Assembly (NCBI RefSeq): GCF_014076415.1
Contig: NZ_CP043568.1
Span: 744,001-808,000 of the forward strand
Direction of reading: 5' to 3'
Source: Comamonas testosteroni
Lineage (GTDB): Bacteria; Pseudomonadota; Gammaproteobacteria; Burkholderiales; Burkholderiaceae_C
DNA length: 64,000 nucleotides
Shown here one piece after another: positions 3,610-62,086 of this stretch; positions within the stretch are counted from its first letter, which is position 1; each line of letters begins with the position of its first letter. The position numbers were made by a program, and so were the translations under genes. Under the pieces are notes generated by a model. It was given only the letters and a program-made list of their open reading frames with translations, had not been told where the DNA came from and made no database searches.

Positions 3610-6467
3610 AAGAAACCAAGTCCACTTGCCCCTATTGCGGTGTCGGCTGCGGCGTGGTCATCGAGTCCGATGGCCTGCAGATTACCGGCGTGCGTGGCGA
3701 TCCCGAGCATCCTGCCAACTTGGGCCGTCTGTGCACCAAGGGCAGCACCCTGCATCTGACGGCCGCGCCCGCCTATGCCCAGCAGGCCCGCCTGCTGCAG
3801 CCCATGCGCAGGCTGGAGCGGACATCCGCGCCGCAGGCCGCGAGCTGGGATCAGGCCCTGGATGAACTGGCGGCGCGCATTGCCGGCATTCGCGCCGCCC
3901 ATGGGCCCGATGCACTGGGTTTCTATCTCAGTGGCCAGCTGCTGACCGAGGACTACTACGTCTTCAACAAGCTGGTCAAAGGCCTGCTGGGCACCAACAA
4001 TCTCGACACCAATTCGCGCCTGTGCATGAGCAGCGCCGTGGCCGGCTACAAGGCCACGCTGGGCGCCGATGCACCGCCGGCCTGCTATGAGGACATAGAC
4101 CTGGCCGGCTGCATGTTCATCACGGGCAGCAATATGGCCTGGGCGCACCCCATTCTGTTCAGGCGTGTGGAAGAGGCCAGGGCGCGCAGTCCGCAACTCA
4201 GGATCATCGTGGCCGATCCGCGCCGTACCGAGACGGCAGAGCTGGCCGATCTCTATCTGCCGCTGCAGCCGGGCAGCGATGTGATGCTGTTTCACGGTCT
4301 GCTGCACATCATGCTGTGGGAGGGCTGGACGGACAGCGCCTTCATCGCGCAGCACACCAGCGGCTTTGCACAGCTCAAGGAACTGGTGCGCGAAGCCACG
4401 CCCGAGAAGGTCGCTGCCATCTGCGGCCTGCCCGTGCCGGACCTGTACCTGGCGGCGCGCTGGATGGCGCTGGGCGGTGCCGAGGAGCCGGCGGACGCGC
4501 GTCGTCCCACGCTCAGCCTCTACTGCCAGGGTCTGAACCAGAGCCGCAGTGGCACGGCCAATAATGCGGCGCTGATCAATCTGCATCTGGCGACGGGCCA
4601 GATCGGCAGGCCTGGCGCCGGGCCCCTGTCACTGACGGGCCAGCCCAATGCCATGGGCGGGCGCGAGGTGGGCGGACTGTCCAATCTGCTGAGCGCGCAT
4701 CGTGATCTTTCGAACGCAGGGCACAGGGCAGAAGTGGCACGGCTATGGGGTGTGGAGTCGATTCCGCAGAAGCCCGGAAAGTCAGCGCTGGAGATGTTCG
4801 AGGCCGCTGCCGACGGCCAGATCAAGGCCTTGTGGATTGCCTGCACCAACCCCGCGCAGAGCATGCCCGAACAGGCCATGGTGCGCAGGGCGCTGGAGCG
4901 CGCCGAGCTGGTGGTGGTGCAGGAGGCCTTTGCAGCGACCGAGACCACGGCCTATGCCGACTGGTTGCTGCCAGCCTCCACCTGGGGCGAGAAGCTGGGC
5001 ACGGTCACGAACAGCGAGCGGCGCATCTCGCGGGTGCGCGCCGCCGTGGTCGCGCCGGGGGCGGCACGCCATGACTGGCAGATAGGCGTGCAGCTGGCGC
5101 GGCGCCTGGAGCAGCATCTGCGGCCCTCGCTGCCAAGCTTGTTTCCCTATGACACTGCGAATGCCGACGCGGGTGCAGAAGCCATCTGGAACGAGCATCG
5201 CGAGTCCACACGAGGGCGCGATCTGGATATCACGGGTCTGAGCTGGGCGATGCTCGAGGTCGAGGGACCCCAGCAATGGCCCATGCCTCAAGGCGCTAGC
5301 CAGGGCCGGCAGCGTCTGTATGGCGATGCGGTGTTTGCGACCGAGGATGGGCGTGCACGCTTTGATGCACAGCCCTGGCAGACGCCGGCCGTGCCGCGCG
5401 ATGCACGGCATCCGTTCAGTCTCAACACCGGCCGCCTGCGCGATCAATGGCATGGCATGACGCGCACTGGCCAGTTGGGGCGTCTGTTCGCCCATGCCAG
5501 CGAACCTCAGCTGCAGGTCAGTCCCCAGGACATGCAGAGGCAGCAGCTGCAGGACGGCGATCTGGTCCATCTGTCCAACCGCTATGGCGCCATCGTGCTG
5601 CCCGTGCAGGCGGACCCTGGCTTGCAGCCCGCACAGCTCTATCTGCCCATGCACTGGGGCAGCATGTACCTGAGCGGCATGGGCTCCAAGGGGCAGCGGC
5701 TTGCGGGCGTCAATGCCCTGACCACCCCCGAGCGCTGCCCGCGCTCCAAGCAGCCCGAGCTCAAGCATGTGGCCGTCAGGCTGCTCAAGGCCGAGCTGCC
5801 CTGGACCTGTCTGGGCATGGCCTGGCTTGATGACCAGCAGGTGCAGTCGGTTCGGCAGGCCCTGAGCGAACTGATGGCCGAGTTCGACTTTGCCAGCTGC
5901 GTGCTGTTTGGACGCGCCGTGCCGCTGGAGAAAGCGGATCAGGGCCGCACCGGCGTGCAGTTCCGCGCTGCAGCCTATGCGCAGCCCGGCGCCGAGGTGC
6001 TGGCGCGGCTGCACAGCCTGCTGCGGCTCGATGGCCCGCAGGCCATGCGCTATGCCGACGCGCGTCGCCAATGCAGCCGCGCCATGGCGATAGGCCGGCA
6101 GACCGATGAGCCCAGGCTCGATGCCTTTTTGCTCTGTGGCGATGCCAGCGCCGGTCGCTGGCTGGGGCCGGTACTGCGCGACGAGCAATCGGTGCAAAGC
6201 TATGGGCGTCTGCTGCTGTCCTCGGGGGCCAGGCCGCCAGCCGCCATGCCTGCCCGGTCGCCACAGATCTGTGCCTGCATGAATGTGGATGAGGCCAGCA
6301 TCAACTCGGCACTGACCGCGTGCGAGGGCTCCGCCGACGAGCGGATCGCGCAGCTCAAGTCTTCCCTGGGATGCGGCACGCGCTGCGGCTCCTGCATTCC
6401 CAGGATCAAACAACTGGTGCATGCGACGCCTGCGCCGCAGTCGGCAAGCCTGTCGGTTGCCGCCTAG
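3606..6467 (+). CDS. nasA: assimilatory nitrate reductase, molybdenum catalytic subunit
   Basis: Cytoplasmic Mo-bis-MGD enzyme reducing nitrate to nitrite, 953 aa. The N-terminal [4Fe-4S] ligands CPYCGVGC are at about residues 8-15 with the distal Cys in GRLCTKG. The molybdopterin oxidoreductase body includes GSNMAWAHP, a molybdopterin-dinucleotide region near FSLNTGRLRDQWHGMTRTG, and MHWGSMY. A C-terminal BFD-like [2Fe-2S] module (CACMNVDE...CGTRCGSC) begins near residue 887, as in the longer NasA/NasC-type enzymes. The ATG at 3606 is the third of three repeated starts; GGTGA at 3598-3602 is the likely binding site. The stop abuts the cobA region. It needs molybdenum, which may link it to the uptake operon at 9.0-15.5 kb. 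Confidence 0.95.
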   Translation: MKETKSTCPYCGVGCGVVIESDGLQITGVRGDPEHPANLGRLCTKGSTLHLTAAPAYAQQARLLQPMRRLERTSAPQAASWDQALDELAARIAGIRAAHGPDALGFYLSGQLLTEDYYVFNKLVKGLLGTNNLDTNSRLCMSSAVAGYKATLGADAPPACYEDIDLAGCMFITGSNMAWAHPILFRRVEEARARSPQLRIIVADPRRTETAELADLYLPLQPGSDVMLFHGLLHIMLWEGWTDSAFIAQHTSGFAQLKELVREATPEKVAAICGLPVPDLYLAARWMALGGAEEPADARRPTLSLYCQGLNQSRSGTANNAALINLHLATGQIGRPGAGPLSLTGQPNAMGGREVGGLSNLLSAHRDLSNAGHRAEVARLWGVESIPQKPGKSALEMFEAAADGQIKALWIACTNPAQSMPEQAMVRRALERAELVVVQEAFAATETTAYADWLLPASTWGEKLGTVTNSERRISRVRAAVVAPGAARHDWQIGVQLARRLEQHLRPSLPSLFPYDTANADAGAEAIWNEHRESTRGRDLDITGLSWAMLEVEGPQQWPMPQGASQGRQRLYGDAVFATEDGRARFDAQPWQTPAVPRDARHPFSLNTGRLRDQWHGMTRTGQLGRLFAHASEPQLQVSPQDMQRQQLQDGDLVHLSNRYGAIVLPVQADPGLQPAQLYLPMHWGSMYLSGMGSKGQRLAGVNALTTPERCPRSKQPELKHVAVRLLKAELPWTCLGMAWLDDQQVQSVRQALSELMAEFDFASCVLFGRAVPLEKADQGRTGVQFRAAAYAQPGAEVLARLHSLLRLDGPQAMRYADARRQCSRAMAIGRQTDEPRLDAFLLCGDASAGRWLGPVLRDEQSVQSYGRLLLSSGARPPAAMPARSPQICACMNVDEASINSALTACEGSADERIAQLKSSLGCGTRCGSCIPRIKQLVHATPAPQSASLSVAA

Positions 6468-9004: not shown

Positions 9005-9031
9005 ATCGTTATTCCATAAATGAATAGCGGT
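9005..9031. promoter_or_regulatory. ModE-like palindrome upstream of the TonB operon
   Basis: The half sites ATCGTTATTC (9005-9014) and GAATAGCGGT (9022-9031) are inverted with an 8/10 match and a 7-bp spacer. The outer bases resemble the ModE operator pattern ATCGnTAT...ATAACGAT. It lies 50 bp before the receptor start, next to a -10-like TAGAAT, where a repressor would act. Molybdate-responsive control is inference. Confidence 0.45.
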
Positions 9032-9034
9032 GGC

Positions 9035-9040
9035 TAGAAT
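9035..9040 (+). promoter_or_regulatory. possible -10 element of the TonB operon
   Basis: TAGAAT matches TATAAT at five of six bases and lies 41 bp before the ATG at 9081. The -35 region is weak (TTCCAT near 9012) and falls inside the palindrome. Confidence 0.35.
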
Positions 9041-9080
9041 CGACATTTTTTACATTCGACAACAAATTCCAGCCCGCGCC

Positions 9081-11123
9081 ATGCCATTGCACTTCACGGT
9101 TTCCCAGATCCATCCTCCGAGTCTTGTTCTTCGCCGCAGCTGGTTGTGGGGCGCGCTGGCCATCGCGCCCATGGGTGCGGTCTGGGCCCAGGCCGCGGCC
9201 GAAGCTGCCAGTCAGACTTTCACGCTGGGTACGGTGGAGGTCAGTGCGCGGCGCGAGGCCGAAGAGCTCGGGGCCGGCGACATGCAGCGCGTCGGCAGTG
9301 CCGAGATGGAGCGCATCAATGCCGGCACCGTGGCCGATGCCGTGCGCAATCTCCCCGGCGTGAGCCTGTCGCGCAACAACCGCAACGAGGAAATGATCAG
9401 TCTGCGGGGCTTTGACTCGCGCCAGGTGCCCATCTTTGTGGACGGCGTGCCGCTGTATGTGCCCTATGACGGCTATGTGGATCTGGGCCGTTTCACCACC
9501 TTCGACCTGGCCGAGATCAATGTGGCCAAGGCCGGTGCCTCGCTGCTGTACGGCCCCAATACGCTGGGCGGTGCCGTCAATCTGGTCACGCGAAAACCGG
9601 CCAAGCCCTTCGAGGGCGACGTGCGCCTGGGTGTGGGCAGCGGTGGCGAGCGCAGGGCGAGCTTCAACCTGGGGGGCAACCAGGGCAACTGGTACTACCA
9701 GTTGGGCGCCTCCTACCTGGATGCCGACAGTTTTCCTCTGCCCCGGGGCTTCAGGGATTACAAAAAGCAGCCCACCGATACCGGCAGCAAGCGCGAGAAC
9801 GCGGACCGTACCGACAAGCGCCTGTCCTTCAAGCTGGGACTCACGCCCAATGCCACGGACGAATACGCCATTGGCTATGTGCGTCAGGAAGGCGAGAAGG
9901 GCAATCCCGTCTACACCGGCCAGTCCACGCAGAAGAACGCCGTGCGTTACTGGCGCTGGCCCTATTGGGACAAGGACAGCCTGTACTTCCTGAGCACCAC
10001 CCGTCTGAACAGCAGCAATGTGCTCAAGACCCGCCTGTACCACGATACCTACAAAAACGGTCTCGACATGTACAAGGACGCCAGCTACACGGCCCACGAT
10101 CCGACCAGCAGCTACAAGGATGTGAGCAAGGGGGCCAGCCTGGAGTGGGTCAACTACGCCTTCTCCGGTCATGAGCTGCATGCGGCCTTCCACTACAAGC
10201 AGGACGAGCACACCGACGCGGCCTCGGGCAAGGACCCGCAGAAGCACTACCGCGATGTGACCACCTCGCTGGTGCTCGAGGATCACATCGCCCTGGCCGA
10301 GCGTTGGCGCCTGACGCTGGGCCTGAGTCACGACCAGCGCGATGCCAAGCAGGTCTACCAGTGGCCCACGGGCTCCACCAGCGCCACCAACGGTCTGGCA
10401 CGCCTGAGCTATGCGCTCACGGCCCAGGGCGACGAGGTCTATCTGATTGCCTCGCACAAGACCCGCTTTGCGACCATCAAGGACCGCTATTCGGCACGCA
10501 TGGGAACGGCCCTGGCCAACCCCGACCTCAAGCCCGAGGTGGCCAACCACCTGGAGCTGGGCCTGAGCGGCAAGCCCTGGCAGGGCGGCAAGGGGCAGGC
10601 GGCCGTGTTCTACAGCCGGGTGCGCGACCAGATCCAGACCATGGTCCTGGACTCCACGGCCTGCGGCGGCAAGACATGCAACCAGGCGCAGAACGTGGGA
10701 CGCACGCGCAATGTCGGTCTTGAGGTGTCTCTGGCGCAGCAACTGTCGGCCCAATGGGCTCTGCATGCGGGCTACACCTATCTGAGCCGCACCAATCTCA
10801 GCGACCGCAGCATCACCTTGACTGACACGCCGCGTCAGCGTCTGACTGCCGCCCTGCAATGGAGTCCGCAAGCCCAGTGGCAGCTGCGTGCCGAGCTGGA
10901 GGCAGAACAGGGCCGCAAGGTACCGCTGTCGGCCAGCGGCCAGGCACAGGTCTATCAGATGGCCGGCTACGGCGTGGCCAATCTGCGCGCGCGCTATCTG
11001 CCGCGTCCGGACACCACGCTGGACTTCGGCGTGGCCAATCTGGGCGACAAGTGGTATCAGCTGGCAGACGGTCTGCCCATGCCTGGCCGCAGCTGGTACA
11101 TGAACCTGGGCTACCGGTTCTGA
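9081..11123 (+). CDS. TonB-dependent outer membrane receptor (candidate Mo/W uptake)
   Basis: Outer membrane gated channel of 680 aa. The signal peptide ends in VWAQA, then a plug domain (SLRGFDSRQVPIFVDGVPL; LLYGPNTLGGAVNLVTRKP at about residues 155-172), and a C-terminal beta-barrel ending in LGYRF, the aromatic end expected for outer membrane insertion. The ATG at 9081 is chosen because it directly precedes the signal peptide; the frame also opens at a GTG at 9030 inside the palindrome. It overlaps the next gene by TGATG and leads an operon with binding proteins and a BtuCD-type importer. The substrate could be a molybdate/tungstate complex, cobalamin or a siderophore; the neighbours favour the first. 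Confidence 0.85.
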   Translation: MPLHFTVSQIHPPSLVLRRSWLWGALAIAPMGAVWAQAAAEAASQTFTLGTVEVSARREAEELGAGDMQRVGSAEMERINAGTVADAVRNLPGVSLSRNNRNEEMISLRGFDSRQVPIFVDGVPLYVPYDGYVDLGRFTTFDLAEINVAKAGASLLYGPNTLGGAVNLVTRKPAKPFEGDVRLGVGSGGERRASFNLGGNQGNWYYQLGASYLDADSFPLPRGFRDYKKQPTDTGSKRENADRTDKRLSFKLGLTPNATDEYAIGYVRQEGEKGNPVYTGQSTQKNAVRYWRWPYWDKDSLYFLSTTRLNSSNVLKTRLYHDTYKNGLDMYKDASYTAHDPTSSYKDVSKGASLEWVNYAFSGHELHAAFHYKQDEHTDAASGKDPQKHYRDVTTSLVLEDHIALAERWRLTLGLSHDQRDAKQVYQWPTGSTSATNGLARLSYALTAQGDEVYLIASHKTRFATIKDRYSARMGTALANPDLKPEVANHLELGLSGKPWQGGKGQAAVFYSRVRDQIQTMVLDSTACGGKTCNQAQNVGRTRNVGLEVSLAQQLSAQWALHAGYTYLSRTNLSDRSITLTDTPRQRLTAALQWSPQAQWQLRAELEAEQGRKVPLSASGQAQVYQMAGYGVANLRARYLPRPDTTLDFGVANLGDKWYQLADGLPMPGRSWYMNLGYRF

Positions 11124-12025
11124 TGGCCATGGAACACCTGCTTCAGACATCGCTGGCAAGGCGTGACTGGCTGCGGAGTCTGGCTGCCCTGGGCATGGCC
11201 GGTGGCCCGGCCCTGGCGGCGGGAGCAAAACCCGCTGCGAGCACAGGCGTACAGGTGGCAGCCGTGGGCGGACTCGTGCTGTGCGGCGTGTGGCCGCGCG
11301 TGGCCGAACAGGCCAGCCAGGCCCTGGCCATGCCGGTCACCACCGTGGCGGCCGCGCCCAAGGAGGGCGTGGTGCCCGCCTTCGCGCGCGGCCAGGCGCA
11401 GATGCTGCTGATTCACGCCAGCGACGAAGCCATGGCACTGGAGGCCAGCGGCATGGCGGGTGCTGCGCGCGTCTGGGGCTGGAACCAGCATGTCATTGCC
11501 GGCCCCGCTCATGACCCCGCCGGCGTGCGTTCGGTCGCTGACGGCACGCAGGCGCTGCGGCGCATTGCCGAAACCGGCGCCCCCTTTATCGCGCTGCGCG
11601 ATCCCGGCAGCTATACCGTGGTGCAGCGTCTGTGGCGGCGCGGCGGCATACGCCCCGATGCGCGCTGGCTGCGCGCCGACACCGGCCCGCGCCCGCAGGC
11701 CGTGCTGGAGCTGGCGGCGCGCGAGCAGGCCTATGCCGTGGTCGGCCATATTCCCCTGGCTTTCGGCAAGATGGGCGCTCCCGGCATAGAGCTGCTGCTG
11801 CATGGCGATCCGCTGATGCGCAGACCCTATGTGCTGCTCACGCCCGGCCCGCGCCATCCGGCCACGCCGGAGCAGCGTCGGACGGTGAACCTGCTGGCCG
11901 AGTATCTGCTGTCGGCGGCCGGCCAGCATGTACTCGAAGCCGCCAGCGGCGCAGGCGGCCCCTGGGTGTTTGCGCGCGACAGCGTACCCGCCGGCATGAA
12001 CACCGGCGCCGATGGACAGACATGA
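11123..12025 (+). CDS. TupA/PBP-like periplasmic binding protein
   Basis: Exported protein of 300 aa. The N-terminal segment has a twin arginine (ARRDWLRSLAALG) and a signal-like stretch ending in GPALAAG. The body resembles tungstate-binding TupA proteins: LLIHASDEAM, AGPAHDPAGVRS, and ALRRIAETGAPFIALRDPGS followed by LWRRGGI and a late region with HIPLAFGKM. No TupB or TupC partner is present. It begins within the receptor stop codon (TGATG), so translation is probably coupled. Binding of tungstate or molybdate is inferred from this resemblance; some ligand residues may differ, so another oxyanion or a sensor role is possible. Confidence 0.65.
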   Translation: MAMEHLLQTSLARRDWLRSLAALGMAGGPALAAGAKPAASTGVQVAAVGGLVLCGVWPRVAEQASQALAMPVTTVAAAPKEGVVPAFARGQAQMLLIHASDEAMALEASGMAGAARVWGWNQHVIAGPAHDPAGVRSVADGTQALRRIAETGAPFIALRDPGSYTVVQRLWRRGGIRPDARWLRADTGPRPQAVLELAAREQAYAVVGHIPLAFGKMGAPGIELLLHGDPLMRRPYVLLTPGPRHPATPEQRRTVNLLAEYLLSAAGQHVLEAASGAGGPWVFARDSVPAGMNTGADGQT

Positions 12026-12038
12026 TCGAAGGAGCTGC

Positions 12039-12590
12039 ATGAGCCCCTATCCTGACCGGCCGCCGCTGGCGGCAGTGATCTTTCCCGATGACCGGCACGA
12101 TATCGAAGCCATGCTGGAGAGCGTGGCGCGGCGGCTGCAGCAGTCGGGGCGCTGCGTGGGCGGGCTGGTGCACCGGCAGAGCCGCTATGCCAATGGCAAC
12201 AAGTGCATGCGCCTCGTGGATCTGCGCAGCGGCCAGCAATTCGAGATGACCGAGGATCTGGGGGCGGCTTCGCGGGCCTGCAGCCTTAACCCTCAGGCCC
12301 TGGCCCGGGCCAGCGTGGTGCTGCGCCAGGCGCTGGCCGATGGCGTGGAGTTGGCCGTCGTCAACTGCTTTGGCCAGCTCGAAGCCGCAGGCGGCGGTTT
12401 TGTCCAGGAGATCGCTGCTTTTGTCGAGGCCGGCATTCCCATGATCACGGCGGTCGCCGCCCGGCATGAAGCCGGCTGGCAGGAATTTACCGGTGGCGCC
12501 TTTGTCGGCCTGCCGGTCGATGAGCAAGCGCTGCTGCAGTGGTGCCGGCAGCAGCTGGAGCGCGAAGACCAGGGAGACAGGTCATGCTGA
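12039..12590 (+). CDS. DUF2478 family protein
   Basis: Cytoplasmic protein of 183 aa without signal peptide or membrane segment. Features are AAVIFPDDRHDIEAMLESVA at the N terminus, CVGGLVHRQ, MRLVDLRSGQQFEMTEDLG, and VVNCFGQLEAAGGGF with an acidic/aromatic C-terminal part. I recognise this as DUF2478, a family that to my knowledge is frequently encoded beside molybdenum transport and utilisation genes; its biochemical role is unknown. AAGGAG at 12029-12034 precedes the ATG. Its last 7 bases overlap the start of the next gene, placing it firmly inside the uptake operon. Confidence 0.7.
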   Translation: MSPYPDRPPLAAVIFPDDRHDIEAMLESVARRLQQSGRCVGGLVHRQSRYANGNKCMRLVDLRSGQQFEMTEDLGAASRACSLNPQALARASVVLRQALADGVELAVVNCFGQLEAAGGGFVQEIAAFVEAGIPMITAVAARHEAGWQEFTGGAFVGLPVDEQALLQWCRQQLEREDQGDRSC

Positions 12591-13632
12591 CGCGTCGCCA
12601 ATGGCTGCAGGCCTCTGCGGGAGCGCTGGCCCTGGGCGTTCAGCCAGGAGCGGCCTGGGCGCAGGATGATCGCTCCGTCATTGCCGCCCGCTTTGGCTCG
12701 CTGCCGGCACGGCCGGGCCGGGTCTTCGCTTCGGGGCCGCCGGCCGGCGTGCTGCTGGCAGCGCTGGCGCCGCAGCAGTTGCTGGGTTGGCCCATGCAGC
12801 TTGGCGATGCAGCGCGCGCCCATCTGGGTGCGCCACTGCAGGCCTTGCCCTATCTTGGGCGCCTGTCGGGCCGTGGCAGCACGCTGCCGCTCGAAAAGCT
12901 GCTGGCTCTGCAACCCGATCTGGTACTGGACTCCGGGACTTCCGACGCCACCCATGTCTCAGCCGCAGAGCGCCTGGCGCGCCAGACGGGCCTGGCCTGC
13001 GTGCTGGTACAAGGCAGCCTGGGCGACCATGCGCGCCAGCTGCGCGAGGTGGGAGCTTTGCTGGGTGCGGCCGGGCGTGGCGAGACCCTGGCCCGCCATG
13101 CGGACGAGGTCGCGGGTCTGGTGCGAGCCGTGACTGCCGGTCTCGATGAGCAGGCCCGGCCGCGCGTCTATCTGGGGCGGGGCACCAACGGTCTGGAAAC
13201 CGGGCTGGCCGGCTCCATCAATGTCGAGGTGATCGACTATGCGGGCGGCCGCAATGTGGCGGCCCAGGCAGGGGCGGACTCACGCGCGTCTCCATGGAGC
13301 AGATCCTGGCCTGGGACCCCGAAGTCATACTGACCCAGGAGGCGGGCTTTGCCGAGCGCGTGCGCCAGGACCCCTTGTGGCGTGGCGTCAGCGCCGTGCG
13401 CAGCGGCCGTGTGCACTGCGCGCCTGTGCTGCCCTTTGGCTGGCTGGACGGCCCGCCCAGCGTGAACCGGCTGATCGGAGTGCGCTGGCTGGCTGAGAAG
13501 TTGCATCCGGGCCGGCTCGCGCGGCAGGGCGCCAAGCCCCTGGAGCAGGCGGTGCGCGAGTTCTATGCGTTGTTCTATGGCGTCCAGCTGTCGTCGGCAC
13601 AGTTGCAAGCGCTGCTGGAAGTCGCGCGCTGA
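12584..13632 (+). pseudogene. FecB/MolA-type substrate-binding protein with a -1 frameshift
   Basis: Periplasmic binding protein of the BtuF/FecB/MolA class. It starts MLTRRQWLQASAGAL (a twin-arginine-like signal ending AWAQ) and continues through LLALQPDLVLDSGT and the long helix region to NVAAQAGA near 13275. Coding then continues in a different frame as LTRVSMEQILAWDPEVIL through to the stop at 13630-13632. One base, probably a G in GGGGCGG at 13271-13277, appears lost: adding one G restores GAGGLTRVSMEQILAW. Both halves look intact, so the change is recent or a sequence error. Without it the protein would be about 349 aa. If real, the importer lacks its own binding protein unless the TupA-like protein substitutes. 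Confidence 0.8.
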
Positions 13633-13646
13633 GTGTCTCTGGTTTT

Positions 13647-14756
13647 ATGAAGCTATTCGGCGCTAGCCCAGACAGGGTAATCGGTGACAGCTCTATTTTG
13701 AGGAGCAAGGCAAGCCGCAGCCATCAACGCGGCCATGTTCGTAGCAGCACGGCCTGGGGCTGGCCTTTGGCCCTGCTCTTGCTGGCTATGGTGCTGCTGT
13801 GGGCGTTGTGCTCGGGCCAGTTTGCGCTCGCGCCGGCACAGCTGGCCGAAGCATTGTGGGCTCGGGCCACGGGGGCGGCTTCGCCGCTGCCGCCAGCGGC
13901 CGAAACCGTGCTCTGGAATATCAGGCTGCCGCGCATCGCAGCCGGCATGGCGGTCGGTGCGATGCTGGCTGCAGCCGGTGCGGCCTACCAGGGCATGTTT
14001 CGCAACCCGCTGGTATCGCCTGACATTCTGGGCGTTTCGGCCGGTGCCGGCCTGGGCGCCGTCGTCGCCATCTATCTGGGCCTGTCGATGTTTGCCGTGC
14101 AGTGGCTGGCCTTTGGCGGCGGACTGGTCGCCGTGGCTGTCGTGGTGCTCATCAGCGCCTGCGTGCGCAGGCACGATCCGGTGCTGGTGTTGGTACTGGC
14201 CGGTATTGCGCTGGGCGCTTTGCTGGGTGCCGGCATCGCCCTGATCAAGACCCTGGCAGACCCGAACACCCAGCTGCCGTCCATCACCTTCTGGCTCATG
14301 GGCGGACTGTCGGCCGTGACGCTGCAGGAAGTGGCCGCCACGGCACCCGTGATGCTGGCGGCCTTGCTGCCTTTGCTGCTGCTGCGCTGGCGCATCAATC
14401 TGCTGGCTCTGCCCGATGAGGAAGCGCGGGCTCTGGGCGTGCCGGTCGGGCGGCTGCGCCTGGTGCTGGTGGTTGGCGCCACGTTGGGCACGGCGGCGGC
14501 CGTGTCGCTGGCCGGCATCATCGGCTGGGTCGGACTGGTGGTTCCGCATGTGGCGCGCCTGCTGGTCGGTCCTGATTTCGTGCGCCTGCTGCCGGCTTCG
14601 GCCCTGCTGGGCGCGGGCTTTGTGGTGGCTGCCGATACGCTGGCCCGCACCATGGCGCGTATCGAGCTGCCACTGGGCATTCTGACGGCCCTGGTCGGTG
14701 CACCATTCTTTCTGTATCTGCTGGCCCGCACGGGTCGCCGTGAAGGAGATGCCTGA
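13647..14756 (+). CDS. BtuC/FecCD/MolB-type ABC permease
   Basis: Inner membrane permease of 369 aa with about ten hydrophobic segments. Typical family motifs are LPRIAAGMAVGAMLAAAGAAYQ followed by RNPLVSPDILGVSAGAGLGA, FWLMGGLSAVTL, and the ATPase-coupling helix around LPDEEARALGVPVGR. The C-terminal SLAGIIGWVGLVVPHVARLL and IELPLGILTALVGAPFFLYLL also match. The ATG at 13647 gives an unusual polar N terminus of about 37 residues encoded by a family B-like AGCTATTC element, so a later non-ATG start (TTG near 13698) is possible. It follows the frameshifted binding protein by 14 bp and overlaps the ATPase start. The fold is shared by B12, siderophore and molybdate (MolB) importers. Confidence 0.9.
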   Translation: MKLFGASPDRVIGDSSILRSKASRSHQRGHVRSSTAWGWPLALLLLAMVLLWALCSGQFALAPAQLAEALWARATGAASPLPPAAETVLWNIRLPRIAAGMAVGAMLAAAGAAYQGMFRNPLVSPDILGVSAGAGLGAVVAIYLGLSMFAVQWLAFGGGLVAVAVVVLISACVRRHDPVLVLVLAGIALGALLGAGIALIKTLADPNTQLPSITFWLMGGLSAVTLQEVAATAPVMLAALLPLLLLRWRINLLALPDEEARALGVPVGRLRLVLVVGATLGTAAAVSLAGIIGWVGLVVPHVARLLVGPDFVRLLPASALLGAGFVVAADTLARTMARIELPLGILTALVGAPFFLYLLARTGRREGDA

Positions 14757-15511
14757 TGGCGGTGCTGGACTTGCAGGGTCTGAGCACCGGCCATGGCCGC
14801 AGCGTGGTCAGCGAATCCGTGGATCTGTCGATTGCTACGGGCGAGGTGCTGTGTCTGCTCGGCCCCAACGGCTGTGGCAAGACCACGCTGTTTCGCACGG
14901 TGCTGGGCCTGCTGCCGCCGCTGGCGGGTCGGGTGCTGGTGCAGGGCCAGCCGGTACAGCACTGGCCGCGCGCGGAGTTTGCGCGCCGCGTCGGCTATGT
15001 GCCTCAGGCCCAGGCCGGGGTGTTTGCCTTCGAGGCGCTGGACATGGTGCTCATGGGCCGCGCTGCGCGCCTGCCCCTGCTGGCCAGACCCTCCGGCGCA
15101 GACCGTGCCATGGCACTGGCCTGCATGGAACGGCTGCAGATCGCCCATCTGGCCGCACGCCGCTACACCGAGCTCAGCGGCGGCGAGCGGCAGTTGGTGC
15201 TGATTGCACGCGCGCTGGCGCAGGAGCCGGCGCTGCTGGTCATGGACGAGCCCACGGCCAGCCTGGACTTCGGTAACCAGATTCGCGTGCTGGAGCAGAT
15301 CGAGGCGCTGAGCGCCCAGGGCATGGCCATGCTGTTGTCCACCCACCAGCCCGAGCATGGCTTGCGTGTGGCCAGCCGGATCGCCCTGCTGGGCCATGGG
15401 CGGCTGCTGGGCGTGGGCGAGCCGCGCGCCGTGGCCATGCCCGCAGCGCTGGCTGAGCTCTATGGTGTCAGCGAGGCGGCGATTGCCGCCCATCTATCGG
15501 GCGGCCGCTGA
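14756..15511 (+). CDS. BtuD/FecE/MolC-type ABC ATPase
   Basis: Cytoplasmic ATPase of 251 aa for the permease upstream, with Walker A GPNGCGKTT, Q-loop in GYVPQAQAG, signature LSGGERQ, Walker B LLVMDEPTASLD and switch His in STHQPEHG. The start overlaps the permease stop (TGATG). Last gene of the operon; it converges with the FUSC gene, leaving 5 bp between the stops. Confidence 0.92.
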   Translation: MAVLDLQGLSTGHGRSVVSESVDLSIATGEVLCLLGPNGCGKTTLFRTVLGLLPPLAGRVLVQGQPVQHWPRAEFARRVGYVPQAQAGVFAFEALDMVLMGRAARLPLLARPSGADRAMALACMERLQIAHLAARRYTELSGGERQLVLIARALAQEPALLVMDEPTASLDFGNQIRVLEQIEALSAQGMAMLLSTHQPEHGLRVASRIALLGHGRLLGVGEPRAVAMPAALAELYGVSEAAIAAHLSGGR

Positions 15512-61852: not shown

Positions 61853-61884
61853 AAAAAAAGCCCCTAGCTCAGGAGCTAGGGGCT
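61853..61884 (-). terminator. strong terminator in the region upstream of ilvA
   Basis: AGCCCCTAGCTC and GAGCTAGGGGCT form a perfect 12-bp stem, with a run of A to its left that reads as T leftward. A smaller CCACC/GGTGG hairpin at 61889-61907 precedes it in the minus-strand sense. It faces ilvA, 150 bp before the ilvA start, and could be an attenuator or the end of a small RNA. Confidence 0.85.
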
Positions 61885-62086
61885 GAATCCACCATTAGAG
61901 GAGGTGGAGGAGACAATCGGTGCGATACAGATCGGTGTTAACCAGTAATCTGCAGTCTGCCTGCGGGTTTGACCTCACAGGTAACGCTTGAGTTGTATTG
62001 TATGAGGCTTGTGTTTTCTGTGCATCAAAAGATTCGGGTTTTTATGTATTTGATGCAAAATTGCAACAGTTTCGAGAGGAAAAACA
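61885..62086. other. leader or small RNA region between ilvA and osmC-like gene
   Basis: No ORF with a normal start codon is supported. On the minus strand a stop-free frame carries TPICIAPIVSS but begins without ATG, GTG or TTG. A -10-like TACAAT lies on the minus strand near 62002. The region must also hold the promoter of the divergent OsmC gene. Confidence 0.4.

Follow-up and report, generated by a model that had tools for sequence, protein, structure and literature searches.

The locus considered here raises the question of what is taken up by an operon that combines a TonB-dependent receptor, a relative of a tungstate-binding protein and a BtuCD-type importer. TonB receptors and BtuCD-type importers mostly transport organic complexes, and molybdate is generally held to enter the periplasm through porins. 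The window analysed, to which all coordinates refer unless a locus is named, is a stretch of 64,000 nucleotides from the 5.95 Mb genome of Comamonas testosteroni, and the six genes of the operon lie on its + strand at 9081-15511. Their nearest named relatives are from Comamonas. A sequence-only reading of the window had proposed that these genes form one unit that takes up molybdenum or tungsten actively across the outer membrane. Judging from sequence comparisons, the operon is probably a two-stage importer of molybdenum under ModE control, accepting molybdate or a molybdate complex and possibly tungsten.

Gene content and conservation of the operon

The first gene (9081-11123) encodes a TonB-dependent outer-membrane receptor matching PF00593 and PF07715. 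Its open reading frame starts with a GTG at 9030, and the ATG at 9081 is favoured by comparison with the starts of relatives. It is followed by genes for a TupA-like periplasmic binding protein of the VGG clade (11123-12025), an NTPase-like DUF2478 protein that is presumably cytoplasmic (12039-12590; PF10649, 163.5 bits), a FecB/MolA-type periplasmic binding protein (12584-13333; PF01497), a FecCD permease of the BtuC/MolB type (13647-14756; PF01032, 288 bits), and the ABC ATPase of the importer (14756-15511; PF00005), which closes the conserved gene order. The overlaps that had been taken to couple the genes were confirmed in the letters, with TGATG at 11121-11125 and ATGCTGA at 12584-12590. 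All six families were found where a six-gene unit had been proposed, but the FecB/MolA-type gene is frameshifted and not intact. Elsewhere in the window, positions 61853-61915 on the - strand match a Betaproteobacteria toxic small RNA family (RF02278).

Compared with four intact relatives, the FecB/MolA-type gene has lost four bases, net, near position 13267. The retained frame stops at 13333, and the remainder continues in another frame of the + strand (13294-13632), where the C-terminal part of PF01497 is matched slightly below the cut-off. The predicted product has 249 residues, the final ones off frame, compared with 350 in the relatives. The frameshift may be genuine or may have arisen in the assembly. 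Because the MolA-type protein is truncated in the strain of the window, the inner-membrane step may be impaired there or served by a different carrier, for example ModABC. C. testosteroni ATCC 11996 (L016) is one strain whose operon is intact.

Species genomes were scanned with search patterns that contained no VGG or TTTS motif, which yielded 30 loci; profile matches in the loci below 35 bits were dropped, and L051 and L052, which duplicate L021 and L022, were left out of the counts. All of the 12 closest relatives (L012-L023) and one further genome (L053) have the six genes in the same order, and the recurrence of this order in all 12 close relatives indicates that the set is not a product of chance. 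The TupA-like binding protein itself is rare, being found by a family search in 7 of 299 genomes, own genome included. Five of these carry all six genes in order (G000, which is the genome of the window, G128 = L013, G141 = L021, G178 = L022, and G294 = L053), and two have the receptor and the binding protein alone (L049 and L050). In the same search, the protein was absent from two of the three other genomes of the genus. The receptor adjoins the VGG protein without a FecCD importer in L035, L049, and L050. Conversely, the stretch L060:6493-12869 contains modE, the box described below, and genes for a receptor, DUF2478, FecB, FecCD, and ATPase without a TupA-like gene, so the latter is not essential to the set.

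Full-length matches to the ModE profile lie near the operon in 5 of the 13 six-gene loci (L019, L020, L021, L023, and L053), 1 to 4 kb beyond the ATPase gene. Such matches were also obtained in the farther relatives L024, L025, L026, L033, L039, L040, and L050, and in L060. The ModE matches were confirmed by Pfam in all three loci tested. ModA scored above the curated cut-off in all three loci tested (L020, L023, and L053). ModB did so in the single locus tested (L020), where the ATPase of the mod set fell below the ModC cut-off. In the modE-flanked cluster of Rhodocyclus, a small protein with a PF00174 molybdopterin-binding domain is encoded between two TonB receptors (L024:4144-4701), and a similar small PF00174-type protein, judged by eye, is encoded at L025:3637-4314. 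Genes for a second TonB receptor and a second periplasmic binding protein are present at L030:9727-12995 and L039:17014-20282, the receptor being confirmed by Pfam in L039 only, and both stretches also contain a ModE-type box.

Two further claims about the neighbourhood fared less well. The gene for nitrate reductase, a molybdenum-dependent enzyme that had been cited as a neighbour, does end at 6467, which is 2.6 kb before the receptor gene. This neighbourhood is not conserved, however, since nitrate reductase was found upstream of the operon in 2 of the 12 close relatives (L012 and L016; approximately 10 kb upstream viewed), and the link was dropped as support. DUF2478 had been said to sit near molybdenum genes. 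The operon copy is the sole one in the host genome, and DUF2478 was found in 6 of 276 class-level genomes, two of which are the own genome and one of the same genus. Among the other four, L060 has the modE and receptor set mentioned above and L062 has TupABC-like genes, whereas none of the profiles used matched in L061 and L063 (a short contig). With a context of the molybdenum or tungsten type in two of the four genomes outside the genus, DUF2478 was rejected as a general molybdenum marker.

Kinship of the transport proteins

When the permease was compared with solved structures, HI1471 (2nq2) ranked first with an E value of 1.8e-64, and the next match had 5.6e-54. A profile built from 15 intact relatives of the FecB-type protein matched 4pag and 4ovk, for which no function is named, and then HI1472 (3psa; E = 1.4e-26), which ranked above iron and B12 binders. 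The window's own 5' piece matched 4pag and, weakly, four other structures, with HI1472 absent among them. We take HI1471 and HI1472 to be MolB and MolA, respectively. The operon thereby resembles MolABC of Haemophilus influenzae (HI1470-1472), a BtuCD-type molybdate/tungstate importer, in having a permease and, less clearly, a binding protein of the same importer type; it differs in adding a TonB receptor, a second binding protein, DUF2478, and a ModE-type box. MolBC-A transports molybdate in vivo and is described, in the portion of the source available, as a low-affinity importer whose regulation is poorly understood (PMC4031551). Such a low affinity would be a poor match for an energised receptor.

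The receptor, FecB, FecCD, and ATPase families are also typical of ordinary uptake operons for iron-siderophores, heme, or B12, in which case the palindrome upstream of the receptor gene would be a matter of chance. B12 riboswitches had been named beforehand as counter-evidence to a molybdenum role, and no cobalamin riboswitch was found in the window or in 14 loci by Rfam at gathering scores, so that the molybdenum reading survives on this point. The receptor reached the curated cut-off of none of the 25 NCBIfam models listed (of 31), and the NCBIfam models of the B12 receptor, BtuC, BtuD, and BtuF all gave scores below cut-off. Together with the comparisons to solved structures, these searches do not favour a B12 or siderophore system.

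The TupA-like protein matches three solved structures, namely 3lr1 (named as tungstate-binding), 5my5, and 3muq, with an E value of 9e-20 for its kinship with TupA, and its homologues are publicly named tungsten or tungstate transporters. The ligand site of TupA is formed by Thr9-11, Ser12, His59, Arg118, Thr124, and Asp170, as given in the part of the source consulted (PMC5517513). In a comparison by eye, with our own placing of the published residue numbers, the protein of the window has VGG in place of TTTS and a glycine in place of the aspartate, while the histidine is retained and the arginine is displaced by one position. VGG or IGG is present in 33 of 33 clade proteins, and TTTS or STTS in 28 of 28 canonical TupA proteins, with starts placed by eye; the latter sample comprises 28 weaker matches with loci (L066-L093).

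By these motifs, the TupA-like protein is a member of a separate clade that lacks TTTS and is usually found with receptors. A receptor is encoded in the stretch in 25 of the 33 VGG loci, while a ModB-like protein and ATPase pair is close by in 19 of the 28 canonical TupA loci. The stretch has no receptor in the other eight (L027, L029, L032, L034, L036, L037, L040, and L041), of which L034 and L041 are contigs shorter than 4 kb and L027 and L032 are truncated on the upstream side. The receptor gene of L026 and L033 is approximately 2.7 kb off on the opposite strand, and in L031 and L038 the receptor scores weakly. At L037:8493-10816, the gene for a VGG-clade binding protein neighbours one for an arylsulfotransferase, and no receptor was found there, which is possibly a different use of the clade.

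The operon is therefore related to TupABC in that its binding protein is a TupA homologue, but it lacks TupB and TupC, has a FecCD importer instead, and carries VGG/IGG where TupA has TTTS/STTS. The kinship with TupA and the public names of the homologues would suit a system mainly for tungsten, as tungstate, in which ModE also responds to this anion. We consider this improbable, given that the TupA motif is lost, that the box upstream of the receptor gene is common to modE/modA, and that modABC lies near the operon in relatives.

A ModE-type box upstream of the receptor gene

A predicted ModE-type operator box, the inverted repeat CGNTAT-N11-ATANCG, is located at 9007-9029, 51 bases upstream of the receptor ATG, as the palindrome CGTTATTCCATAAATGAATAGCG. 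A near-identical sequence, CGCTATTACATTAATGAATAGCG, is present in the same genome at the junction of the divergent modE and modA genes; this modE (L007:6581-7453) encodes an HTH_1 domain and one TOBE domain. A longer box pattern was drawn from these two sites, which both match it by construction, and the result of searching the genome with it at up to 3 mismatches is the absence of a third place (reversed control, 0). The bare skeleton CGNTAT-N11-ATANCG occurred at 7 places in the genome (control, 2), and the skeleton with the E. coli spacing of N12 at 0 places (control, 3). The box is specific in the host genome in its longer form only and not as the bare skeleton. Within the window, the skeleton was matched exactly once and with a single mismatch twice (0.27 expected). 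In 4 kb around modE/modA of E. coli K-12, one half-site match was found, beginning 43 bases before the modA ATG. The half-sites of this modA promoter box are identical to those of the Comamonas box, and the spacers differ, being 12 bases in E. coli and 11 in Comamonas.

The half-sites persist across the related receptor loci, which span several genera, while the centres vary. The strict pattern occurred 11 times in the 12 closest loci (L012-L023; 249 kb), each time before the receptor gene, against 1 in the control, and the box upstream of the receptor gene in L018 has one mismatch. In the other 18 loci, 12 matches against 6 in the control make for a suggestive excess; the totals over all 30 loci are 23 and 7, respectively. 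We also scored the upstream regions of receptors above 300 bits, a threshold that left out L025, L028, L030, L031, and L038. Of 22 such regions, the window included, 21 scored at least 9 of 10 and 13 scored 10 of 10, counts that are not independent events as the genomes are related. Random 300-base stretches from the same loci, which may themselves contain boxes, reached at least 9 in 20 of 880 cases and 10 in 4 of 880.

Directly downstream of the box, a TAGAAT stretch is common to the window and L012-L018, as noticed by eye, and a sigma-70 promoter scan found no site. The position of the box next to the TAGAAT stretch would suit repression. With a ModE protein encoded in the genome and a ModE-type inverted repeat in place, the receptor promoter has the predicted features of a ModE-regulon member, the repeat being its putative operator. 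The operon shares this operator type with the ModABC and ModE system, and modABC lies near it in some relatives, but it adds an outer-membrane receptor and an inner pump of the BtuCD type. The box findings in the genome, in the half-sites of E. coli, and in 21 of 22 upstream regions, as well as modE and modABC as neighbours, argue against chance and make an ordinary iron, heme, or B12 operon highly improbable.

Proposed uptake route and its substrate

The role in molybdenum or tungsten uptake that had been proposed is thus supported, and for molybdenum it is indicated by the ModE-type box common to modE/modA, by the modE and modABC neighbours, and by the kinship with MolB and MolA, in addition to the lack of B12 riboswitches in the window and the 14 loci searched. 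The division of labour would be as follows. The TonB receptor would pump the substrate over the outer membrane, the VGG-clade TupA-like protein and the MolA-type protein would capture it in the periplasm, and the MolBC-type permease and ATPase would move it into the cytoplasm, where DUF2478 would be an accessory part. When molybdenum is plentiful, ModE would bind the box and the operon would be shut.

Free molybdate, tungstate, and a complex are all candidates for the ligand. Because the oxyanion motif is lost and the binding protein is linked to a receptor, an organic complex has to be considered. The regulation would then be the same, and the cargo would be an organic molybdenum complex, either a molybdophore such as a catecholate or a pterin-type cofactor, handled whole by the receptor and the BtuCD-type importer as with B12, heme, and siderophores. 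This is possible but doubtful. Organic complexes are the usual cargo of both transporter types, TTTS is lost in the VGG clade, and the modE-flanked Rhodocyclus cluster includes the PF00174 molybdopterin-binding-domain protein; the characterised relatives MolB and MolA, on the other hand, carry the bare oxyanion. In the parts of the literature covered, the complexes named for TonB-dependent transporters are those of iron, zinc, cobalt, and nickel (PMC4965479), and Azotobacter is described as making molybdenum-complexing compounds available for uptake (PMC3440940). The likeness to Azotobacter is that molybdenum complexes are taken up under limitation; the receptor and importer are not named in the part of that source seen (PMC3440940). 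One tentative form of this idea is a ModE-switched, TonB-energised scavenging of an organic molybdenum compound, molybdophore-like or cofactor-like, in which the VGG protein might be a periplasmic partner of a new class, passing the substrate from the receptor onward. The receptor and VGG pair found without FecCD in three loci would then be the core of such a scavenging system.

Returning to the proposed ModE-controlled importer as a whole, a literature search over titles and abstract openings, with few subscription journals, found among the papers listed no ModE-controlled TonB receptor for molybdenum, which does not prove novelty, and no paper joining DUF2478 and molybdate. A molybdate route with an outer-membrane protein has been proposed in Pseudomonas aeruginosa as T6SS-ModA-IcmP; in the part of the source available, IcmP is a metalloproteinase outer-membrane protein and not a TonB receptor as here (PMC8602904). 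A C. testosteroni transcriptome reports upregulated modB and iron-type genes, and no tie to the operon was established from the part of that source seen (PMC10781756).

If the molybdenum reading is true, some bacteria spend energy on gathering molybdenum at the outer membrane, as is done for iron, nickel, and B12. This would bear on the use of nitrate and on other molybdoenzymes where waters and soils are poor in molybdenum. The proposal also offers a setting that can be put to the test for DUF2478 and for a TupA-like clade publicly called a tungsten or tungstate transporter without having the ligand motif of TupA.
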